This document shows positions 4,896 through 7,999 of a DNA stretch of 59,681 bases, one piece after another (the first letter of the stretch is position 1; every line of letters begins with the position of its first letter). The stretch lies in contig PGXT01000006.1 of NCBI GenBank assembly GCA_002839285.1, forward strand, positions 1-59,681, given 5' to 3'. Origin of the DNA: Spirochaetae bacterium HGW-Spirochaetae-5 (GTDB lineage: Bacteria; Spirochaetota; UBA4802; UBA5550). The notes below the pieces were generated by a model. That model did not search any database, was not told the DNA's origin, and worked only from the letters and a program-made list of their open reading frames with translations. A program made the translations under genes and the position numbers.

Positions 4896-7028
4896 TTATG
4901 TTGTTAGTACGATAACTGATTTTTTTACAGAAACAATTGATTCATCATCAACAAAATTTTCTATATCACTTACAAAAATATCCTTTCCGACGCTGCCGCA
5001 GGTATCGATTGAAATTTTCCACTGCTTACCCGAAGGCGATCCGGGAATCCTGAAAGTCATATCGTCATCAGATGCATTGAATATCATAAAAAAATCTGAA
5101 TCCCTGCTGTATGATGATTCCTCTGCGTACTGTCCATTTATAAGAAGTGCAATATAGGGTTCTTCGTTTTCCCAATCCGGCATCGATATTTCAGTTCCAT
5201 GCCACGTAATATCAGGTGTTGTATAGTTGTCGCCCTTTGTTCCTGTAAAGAAAACAGTAGATCTGAGTATAGGATGTTTTTTTCTGAATTCAATCATTTT
5301 TTTTGTAAATTCAAAAATCTCGCTGTTGGTAATTAAAAAATCCCAGTTTAACCAGGATATTTCATTATCCTGACAATATGAGTTGTTGTTCCCTTTCTGT
5401 GTTCTTCTGAATTCATCACCTGCTAAAAGCATCGGAACTCCAAGAGAGAGGAACAGCGTTGCTATAAGATTTTTAATCATCCGTTTTCTTATTTTTTCGA
5501 TTTCGGGGGGAGCTTCGAGACCCTCTACCCCGCAGTTAAAACTGTAGTTGTTGTTTTCACCATCACGATTGTCTTCACCGTTTTCAATATTCTGCTTATC
5601 ATTGAAACTCACAAGGTCGTTCAGAGTGAAGCCATCGTGACATGTTATAAAATTAATACTCCTGCATGGTGTCGTGGAGTTGTATAAATCCGAGCTTCCG
5701 GTAATACGCGTGGCAAAGGCCCCTTTGGAATCTTTATCTCCCCGCCAGAATCTTCTGACGTCATCTCTGTATCTTCCATTCCATTCTGCCCATCTTCCCG
5801 GGAATTTGCCCACCTGATAAGCCCCTCCCGCATCCCAGGCTTCAGCTATTATCTTTGCGTTTCTTAAAATCGGGTCCTCTTCAATCCATTCAATGAGAGG
5901 GGGGTTGCTGAGCATCTCACCGTTCTGATCGCGCCCCAGAATGGACGCAAGATCAAAACGGAAGCCGTCAACATCCATCTCAATAAACCAGTACCGCAGT
6001 GAGTCCACTATCATCTGTCTTACATGGGGGTGATTACAGTTGACGGTATTGCCGCAGCCGGAAAAGTTTTTATATTGAGATTTATCCTTATCAAGAATAT
6101 AATAAATTGAATTGTCAATCCCCCTGAATGACAGCGTTGGCCCCCGGTGGTCTCCCTCGTGAGTGTGGTTAAAAACAACATCAAGAATTACTTCTATTCC
6201 GGCATTGTTGAACTGGCGCACCATCTCTCTGAATTCCTGTACCTGTTCACCGGTTCTACCCCCCGATGAATAACTCGATTTAGGAGCAAAAAAAGCAATT
6301 GTGCTATACCCCCAGAAATTTTTAAGTTTTTCACCTGTAATGGGGTTGGTATTTATATTTTCGAATTCATCGAATTCATGGATAGGCAGAAGTTCAACGG
6401 CGTTAATTCCAAGTTCTTTCAGGTATGGTATTTTTTCCGTCAGTCCTTTGAATGTGCCCGAAGATGAAACTCCAGATGTCTTATCGGCAGTAAATCCTTT
6501 GACGTGGAGTTCATATATAACCAGATCATTTTCCGGTATACGGATGGGTCTTTTCCTTATTTCATTTCTGCCGTTTACAACAATACTCCTCGGGACATAT
6601 TGAGTGCTCTCTTCAGTGGAGTAAGATACAGCTTCATGGGCATCGTCAAGTATTACACCTCTTGCTTTTGTCAGGTCCCACTTGAAGTTGCCGGTTAATG
6701 CACGCGCGTAGGGATCGATAAGGAGCTTGTGTCTGTTGAATCTGTGTCCTTTGGATGGTGTGTATTCGCCGTCTATTCTGTATCCGTAAATCTGGCCATC
6801 ACCGATCCCCTCAATCCATATATGCCATATGTCACCTGTTTTGTTGAATACCGGATCAAAATCAAAAACAGCATACTCCGAATGCTGTTCAGCAGAATCA
6901 AAAAGGAGCAGTTTTACTGATGAAGCATATCTGCTGAATATTGCAAACTGTACTCCGTCGTTGATTATGTTGGCACCGAATGGATGAGGCATACCCGGCG
7001 CGGTTTTCAGATTTTCAAATTTATTCAT
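4896..7028 (-). CDS. glgX: Glycogen debranching enzyme / isoamylase (GH13, GlgX type)
   Basis: 710 aa, close to the usual length for GlgX/TreX. Residues about 13-100 form the N-terminal CBM48 domain (GMPHPFGANIIN...VQFAIFSRYA). The GH13 barrel motifs are intact: DVVFNH at 283-288, GFRFD with nucleophile Asp359, IAEAWD with acid/base Glu396, and TCHDG with His464-Asp465. The enzyme hydrolyses alpha-1,6 branches of glycogen or limit dextrins in the cytosol. Its ATG sits inside the last codons of the upstream DUF1573 gene (ATGAATAA overlap of 8 nt), so translation is probably coupled. No other glycogen genes are in the window. Confidence 0.95.
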   Translation of the reverse strand: MNKFENLKTAPGMPHPFGANIINDGVQFAIFSRYASSVKLLLFDSAEQHSEYAVFDFDPVFNKTGDIWHIWIEGIGDGQIYGYRIDGEYTPSKGHRFNRHKLLIDPYARALTGNFKWDLTKARGVILDDAHEAVSYSTEESTQYVPRSIVVNGRNEIRKRPIRIPENDLVIYELHVKGFTADKTSGVSSSGTFKGLTEKIPYLKELGINAVELLPIHEFDEFENINTNPITGEKLKNFWGYSTIAFFAPKSSYSSGGRTGEQVQEFREMVRQFNNAGIEVILDVVFNHTHEGDHRGPTLSFRGIDNSIYYILDKDKSQYKNFSGCGNTVNCNHPHVRQMIVDSLRYWFIEMDVDGFRFDLASILGRDQNGEMLSNPPLIEWIEEDPILRNAKIIAEAWDAGGAYQVGKFPGRWAEWNGRYRDDVRRFWRGDKDSKGAFATRITGSSDLYNSTTPCRSINFITCHDGFTLNDLVSFNDKQNIENGEDNRDGENNNYSFNCGVEGLEAPPEIEKIRKRMIKNLIATLFLSLGVPMLLAGDEFRRTQKGNNNSYCQDNEISWLNWDFLITNSEIFEFTKKMIEFRKKHPILRSTVFFTGTKGDNYTTPDITWHGTEISMPDWENEEPYIALLINGQYAEESSYSRDSDFFMIFNASDDDMTFRIPGSPSGKQWKISIDTCGSVGKDIFVSDIENFVDDESIVSVKKSVIVLTT

Positions 7029-7401
7029 CTTTCACTGTTGCTTTAACTGTAATTTTAATTACTTTGTTGCCAGGATCATTTGTGTAAACATAAATAGTCT
7101 TAATGCTCTCTCCGGGTCTCATATCTGTGTGAAATTCAATTTCAAGCTGTCCGCTGCCGCCGGCAGGGATCTCCCTTTCTGAAAGGAGTGTTCCGGTGCA
7201 GCCTCAACCTGCTTTAATCCGCTCAATAACAAGTGTGGAACTCCCGGTATTTTTAAAAACAAATGTGTGTTTTTTTGAAGATTCTTTTTCCATCACTCCA
7301 AAATCGTAAACTGTTTCTGTAAATTGCGCTTTAGGTTTAGCTTCACAGTATAAAACCGGAAGCAGTAAAAAAAGCATAAGGCAGATAATAATATTTCTCA
7401 T
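7021..7401 (-). CDS. Secreted DUF1573-domain protein; candidate selenoprotein (in-frame TGA at codon 66)
   Basis: A normal reading gives only 65 aa (7204-7401), starting with a signal peptide (MRNIIICLMLFLLLPVLYCE) and the first half of a DUF1573 beta-sandwich (QFTETVYDFGVMEKESS, then HTFVFKNTG). It stops at TGA (7204-7206) right after IERIKAG. The frame stays open beyond: GCTGTLLSEREIPAGGSGQL, then EIEFHT and KTIYVYTNDPGN, ending in TAA at 7021-7023, for 126 aa in all. DUF1573 proteins normally have CGCT at this point, so the TGA replaces the first Cys and gives UGCT if read as selenocysteine. The full-length stop overlaps the glgX ATG, which supports read-through as the real gene. AAAAGGA lies 8 nt before the ATG. 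Alternative: a nonsense mutation or base-calling error. The molecular function of DUF1573 is unknown. Confidence 0.65.
7171..7188 (-). promoter_or_regulatory. Possible bacterial SECIS stem-loop
   Basis: On the minus strand, 15 nt after the in-frame TGA, the sequence CTCCTTTCAGAAAGGGAG folds into a 7-bp stem (one U-G pair) with a small CAGA loop containing a G. A second strong hairpin, CTGCCGGCGGCAG, follows further on. Bacterial SECIS elements lie just after the UGA inside the coding region, and size and placement here are compatible. No consensus sequence exists to confirm it by eye. Confidence 0.35.
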
Positions 7402-7680
7402 ATTTAAATCCTTTTGTTTAATTAACGGTAATGGTGTTCAGGCGTTATCAATGTTTCGGGACAGGATAACAGGAACGGTCTGTATCTCCTGAAGTCTGAT
7501 TCTTGTGATAATGAAACTTTTATCAGTAATATCATCCGGATTTTATTGTAATAGAAAAGCTCTATTCTCTTAACTGTATCCGGAATAAATAGTTTTCTAT
7601 TTGTATAATTTCAGGATGTACATAGTTATATTTATATCGATTAAAATATTAAGTCAATAATTTAATCAATATGACCGTGA

Positions 7681-7926: not shown

Positions 7927-7999
7927 AAATTACACTCCTACATGTAATTTTACCAGGTTAAAGGCTTTTGCGGATCGCGCTATCCGCAAAAGCCTTTTT
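7927..7999 (+). terminator. Tandem hairpins with strong terminator in a divergent gap; end of an unannotated transcript or a leader attenuator
   Basis: The first hairpin has arms AAATTACA (7927-7934) and TGTAATTT (7943-7950). The second is a perfect 16-bp stem with arms at 7960-7975 and 7982-7997, a six-base loop CGCGCT, and five T residues at the end. The flanking genes are transcribed away from this site, so no annotated gene ends here. The rest of 7402-8108 holds a family A repeat and AT-rich sequence with no ORF I can support. Either a small RNA ends here, or it is a leader terminator about 110 nt before the YciO-type gene. Confidence 0.65.

Follow-up and report, generated by a model that had tools for sequence, protein, structure and literature searches.

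Selenoproteins of the DUF1573 family have a precedent in the prokaryotic selenoprotein catalogues, which list a 'DUF1573 domain-containing protein, UGC' and credit it to a 2007 study of an Olavius algarvensis symbiont (PMC9312934, PMC13188914). Bacterial recoding signals of this kind are described by the bacterial selenocysteine insertion sequence (bSECIS) model, which asks for a G in the first two loop positions, with acknowledged exceptions, and for a spacing of 16-37 nucleotides (nt) between UGA and loop (PMC13188914). Here we describe a DUF1573 gene with an in-frame TGA, located within a 59,681-nt stretch of DNA (the window; contig PGXT01000006.1) from Spirochaetae bacterium HGW-Spirochaetae-5 (GCA_002839285.1), a metagenome-assembled genome (MAG) of 4.71 Mb in 309 contigs. 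We propose that the gene encodes an exported DUF1573 selenoprotein whose recoding is directed by two tandem hairpins and whose product carries a selenol/thiol centre, and we assign this explanation as a whole a probability of about 0.62.

The coding part of the gene runs from 7401 to 7024 on the minus strand and ends in TAA at 7023-7021, with a lone in-frame TGA at codon 66 and 60 codons beyond it. The product can be written as MRNIIICLMLFLLLPVLYCEAKPK...IKAG-U-GCTGTLLSEREIPAGGSG...KDE, and when read through it matches Pfam DUF1573 (PF07610) end to end (87.8 bits against a curated cut-off of 26.1; E 4.9e-25; profile positions 2-98 of 98). The initial annotation had reported a frame broken by this TGA alone, 60 further codons and an 8-nt overlap between the TAA and the glgX start, and its coordinates are exact (glgX starts at 7028). 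It had also placed the TGA at the conserved first Cys. As a Parabacteroides DUF1573 protein reads ASCGCTTPEW at this position, the TGA does correspond to the first Cys of the CGC motif. None of the other one-TGA frames in the window appeared gene-like by eye, no family searches having been run on those frames.

The TGA very probably encodes selenocysteine (Sec), judging from the gene content of the genome and from comparison with homologues. Matches to selA (470.6 bits) and selB (330.3 bits) share one contig (C258) with a tRNA-Sec bearing a TCA anticodon (70.2 bits), and a selD match (363.2 bits; G000:C41:11254-12174) carries an in-frame TGA of its own. The full set of selA, selB, selC and selD, for which the initial annotation had proposed to search, is therefore present in the genome. 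The selD gene also has a canonical GGA-loop hairpin 17 nt past its own TGA, as do its counterparts in most relatives.

A search with the window protein across 59 genomes (its own and relatives) detected homologues in 35. The codon-66 column of 43 aligned homologues holds TGA in 37 and TGC in 6, so a Cys codon is the counterpart of the in-frame TGA; this placement is not due to chance, because all 36 other TGA-bearing homologues share the alignment column. Position 66 (Sec or Cys), C68, G81, G84 and D109 are invariant over 40 aligned proteins, with U entered as C. The selA gene occurs in 31 of the 32 genomes with a TGA-type gene versus 8 of the 27 others, in counts that ignore kinship. The one TGA genome without a selA match, G011, has a completeness of 81% and retains a TGA-containing selD. 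In another relative, G042, selA lies in three pieces (G042:C59:16968-18549) though its DUF1573 and selD genes keep their TGAs, which reflects either frameshift errors or real loss.

These comparisons also bear on two readings in which no selenocysteine would be inserted. Annotation pipelines would end the gene at the TGA, and were this a genuine stop, the locus would be a pseudogene or would yield a short truncated product; in one relative (L086) there is indeed a second TGA, together with a broken motif. We regard this as highly improbable, given that the TGA occupies a single column across 37 genes, mostly 34-55% identical to the window protein, that invariant residues lie 3' of it, that TGC is the sole alternative codon, and that selA is associated with the gene and the hairpins described below are under selection. 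An error of sequencing or assembly at a TGC codon is conceivable for a MAG, but the same TGA in 36 other genes refutes it in practice, and we consider it the least probable reading of all. Both sequencing error and gene decay were rejected on the TGA column shared across homologues; decay, for which the initial annotation had named frameshifts in related strains as the sign, is suggested by only 1 of the 43 homologues. This glgX-linked copy (L086:4054-4452), in which UGRT replaces UGCT, is either decaying or affected by sequence errors.

To describe the candidate recoding signal, we number the TGA as nt 1-3. The stem-loop given in the initial annotation (7188-7171, minus strand) is a real hairpin, H1, with exact coordinates, and begins 15 nt past the TGA; as the recoding signal it is probably half of the structure, as its loop breaks the SECIS rule and a second hairpin, H2, lies 3' of it. 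H1 spans about nt 15-37 in nearly all Sec forms, in a register that varies by gene. Its loop is CAGA in the window and UCA, UCC or ACC in most other genes, and for this reason H1 mostly violates the loop-G rule, which a minority (e.g. CGGA, GUCAA, GGA) obey. Against synonymous-codon shuffles that preserve the protein, the H1 window gives a mean z of -2.33 in 36 Sec forms versus -0.67 in 6 Cys forms. Covariation in any single register is weak, and the case for H1 therefore rests on these shuffles.

H2 occupies nt 38-57, with a GGN triloop at nt 46-48 and a bulge on its 3' side. Every TGA gene having H2 shows a GGN loop, or xGGxx in three genes, in keeping with the loop-G rule, and the distance from UGA to the loop is 42 nt in 31 of 35 (39-41 nt in the others). 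In the same shuffles the H2 window reaches a mean z of -2.16 in Sec forms and +0.68 in Cys forms, with four flanking windows of the Sec forms between -0.32 and +0.37. Third positions within H2 are fixed (codon 14 GCC in 31/35, codon 16 GGC in 33/35, ATC/GTC in 31/35), GCC and GGC each making up about 35% of the codon pool elsewhere; at codon 15, whose third base lies inside the loop, codon choice is mixed. In the pair 42-52, one base is the wobble position of a Pro codon and its partner opens a codon whose amino acid varies; the two bases stay paired as U-A, C-G or G-C in 32 of 35 genes, with 16 double changes (0/500 shuffles). An Rfam scan of 7000-7420 returned no relevant match.

The RNA from nt 15 to 57 is roughly free when UGA occupies the ribosomal A site, and this was the range folded. 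Within it, H1 and H2 are both predicted in 34 of the 37 Sec forms and in none of the 6 Cys forms. The SelD hairpins of the same genomes have a GG-containing loop in nearly all cases, mostly GGN closed by C-G, 16-20 nt from their UGA; subtracting the H1 span from the H2 loop distance leaves a median of 22 nt. The H2 stem has been lost from one gene (L049), in which H1 itself carries a GGA loop 21 nt from UGA; a homologue in a MAG titled Pseudomonadota (L051) has the same two-hairpin order with a GGU loop. The motif IPAGG of the Sec forms contrasts with generic xxPGG/PGE in the Cys forms. Two of the latter (L050 and L044) no longer have H2, give no stable H1 prediction and carry xxPGE where the Sec forms have IPAGG, and on these grounds we read the protein motif as having been shaped by the RNA signal.

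These patterns suggest a class of bacterial SECIS made of two tandem hairpins, which we consider somewhat more likely than not. SelB and Sec-tRNA(UCA) would very likely decode the UGA at 7206-7204 as selenocysteine, as the genomes imply. The GGN triloop of H2 would be the recognition anchor for SelB, and H1 would act as a spacer, shortening the 42-nt path from UGA to the H2 loop by about 20 nt so that some 22 nt remain, near the 16-20 nt seen for SelD.

Several results weigh against this proposal. The 42-nt distance of H2 exceeds the published spacing of 16-37 nt. H1 did not emerge as a consensus structure when RNAalifold was run on the alignment, because its register differs between genes. 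With the folding of nt 1-57 of the window gene left unconstrained, H1 plus H2 (-13.3 kcal/mol) lose out to a longer stem (-22.9 kcal/mol), and H2 appears in only 21 of 37 Sec forms; the model therefore needs the first ~14 nt to be held in the ribosome. The covariation at 42/52 is that of a single pair, with 11 state changes and two fully supported independent contrasts, and since the tree is poorly resolved, many independent switches cannot be counted. An alternative in which selenocysteine is inserted through H1 alone, as a SECIS outside the loop-G rule, would explain the strong selection on its stem and the normal distance of its loop (about 20-22 nt from UGA), exceptions to the rule being acknowledged (PMC13188914). 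It would make H2 a by-product of the PAGG motif and GC-rich codons, but H2 exceeds synonymous expectation, its pairing survives double changes and it is missing from Cys forms, which makes this alternative unlikely. Less likely still, the signal could be a single long imperfect hairpin that starts just past the UGA, ends near nt 54 and has H1 as its apex. This is the free-energy minimum for that part of the window gene (-22.9 kcal/mol), and codon 1 prefers GGC (28/35); however, the outer stem register is not conserved over the family, position 52 covaries with 42 rather than with the constant position 7, and the 5' side would sit within the ribosome while UGA occupies the A site. We favour the two-hairpin signal.

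TGA forms are restricted to the order of the window's genome in a 393-genome sample of its phylum, probably Spirochaetota, with remoter members having stop-free matches or none; the window's genome has three FlaA genes above cut-off, compared with 0 in 14 control genomes, which suggests a spirochaete. The only matches from a scan of wider genome contigs were L051 and a weak one in Bradyrhizobium (L052), and a search of viral contigs found no relatives. Cys forms (L035, L044, L050, L081 and L082) are dispersed among the Sec forms on the protein tree, which suggests repeated Sec/Cys exchange. The initial annotation had put the gene forward as a candidate new selenoprotein, a claim overtaken by the catalogued UGC-motif DUF1573 entry. 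NCBIfam NF041425 (OS_HP2_seleno; curated cut-off 100) matches all 40 proteins tested, with 78.5 bits for the window protein and 65-90 for eight members from related genomes scored singly, all below the cut-off, which L051 exceeds (113.8). The selenoprotein is thus not a new family. Because these proteins score under the cut-off, they form an uncatalogued subgroup of it, and annotation would miss them.

Most glgX-linked members have an N-terminal Cys after a hydrophobic stretch, a probable lipobox, although the window protein has a Tyr at -1, which is non-canonical. The protein is probably an exported, lipid-anchored, one-domain DUF1573 selenoprotein, in agreement with the initial annotation, which had called it secreted and next to glycogen metabolism. 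An AlphaFold model (two sequences; mean predicted local distance difference test score, pLDDT, 83.7) shows an immunoglobulin (Ig)-like sandwich, not a thioredoxin fold, with U66 in a short loop preceding strand 68-72. The best Foldseek matches in the PDB, a HYDIN PapD-like domain (2e6j, E 5.5e-8) and a Porphyromonas gingivalis protein (2qsv, E 3.8e-7), share this predicted fold at 21% identity; to our knowledge, neither is a selenoprotein. The selenol/thiol pair U66-G-C68 would lie in and beside the loop joining two Ig-domain strands. Motif and neighbouring genes in a second clade point to a selenenylsulfide redox or soft-metal-binding centre acting outside the cytoplasm, a role to which we give even odds.

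The gene is followed by glgX (TIGR02100 match, 799.5 bits) in 26 genomes from several families. The Cys-form genes of G002 (L050) and G031 (L044) also still precede glgX, with the upstream gene order likewise unchanged in G002. The two genes are likely transcribed together, and a biochemical tie to glycogen remains putative. It may be speculated that UGA termination under selenium shortage uncouples glgX translation, and we keep this as speculation because the gap to the next gene ranges from overlap to >300 nt. In G005 and G007 (L075, L074) a different conserved gene set, whose first gene has no Pfam match, replaces glgX downstream. A second clade (support 100/99; L080, L087, L091, L092, L094 and L095) adjoins an ArsP_1 permease, some members also lying beside genes for a VKOR-DsbA fusion, Thioredoxin_3, DGC and CcdA-type proteins. 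The strongest hint about function comes from these neighbours, which would fit extracytoplasmic thiol/selenol redox or soft-metal handling; with glgX they make two distinct settings that offer functional leads. No further selenoprotein genes were recognised by eye among the neighbours of nine loci, the six of the second clade included. A strong terminator-like hairpin of 16 bp lies at 7960-7997 of the window, where the selenoprotein gene and a Sua5/YrdC-type gene diverge.

Table 1. Coordinates of the selenoprotein locus within the window
Feature	Position	Strand	Remarks
Sec-DUF1573 gene	7021..7401	minus	126 codons + TAA; probable lipoprotein signal MRNIIICLMLFLLLPVLYC, then single ASH/PapD-like Ig domain
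In-frame TGA, very probably selenocysteine (U66, UGCT motif)	7204..7206	minus	Codon is TGA in 36 further homologues and TGC in 6; sel genes present
Hairpin H1, 7 bp, loop CAGA; proposed spacer	7171..7188	minus	Stem-loop of the initial annotation
Hairpin H2, GGC triloop 7161-7159, 3'-side bulge; proposed SelB-binding SECIS part	7150..7169	minus	
glgX, glycogen debranching enzyme	4896..7028	minus	Start overlaps selenoprotein gene by 8 nt; order kept in 26 genomes

Compared with the DUF1573 (UGC) protein of the Olavius algarvensis Delta 1 symbiont, the window protein belongs to the same Pfam family and likewise has Sec in place of the first CGC cysteine. It differs in being a probable one-domain lipoprotein adjoining glgX, in a group that is order-wide and probably from another phylum; for the Olavius entry, recoding structure and gene neighbourhood are not given (PMC9312934, PMC13188914). 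The window group is matched by NF041425, but the window protein and eight relatives fall below its cut-off, unlike L051. A known selenoprotein family is thus order-wide here, in a lineage without a listing for it in these catalogues (PMC9312934, PMC13188914). If the two-hairpin signal is true, it would allow the way in which SelB gauges distance to be tested cleanly, and finders of single-hairpin SECIS at 16-37 nt would miss or misplace such elements. Like the hairpin of the bSECIS model (PMC13188914), the proposed signal lies in the coding region just 3' of the UGA and has a small G-rich apical loop, but here two hairpins follow one another, and the G-rich loop stands 42 nt from the UGA instead of the published 16-37.
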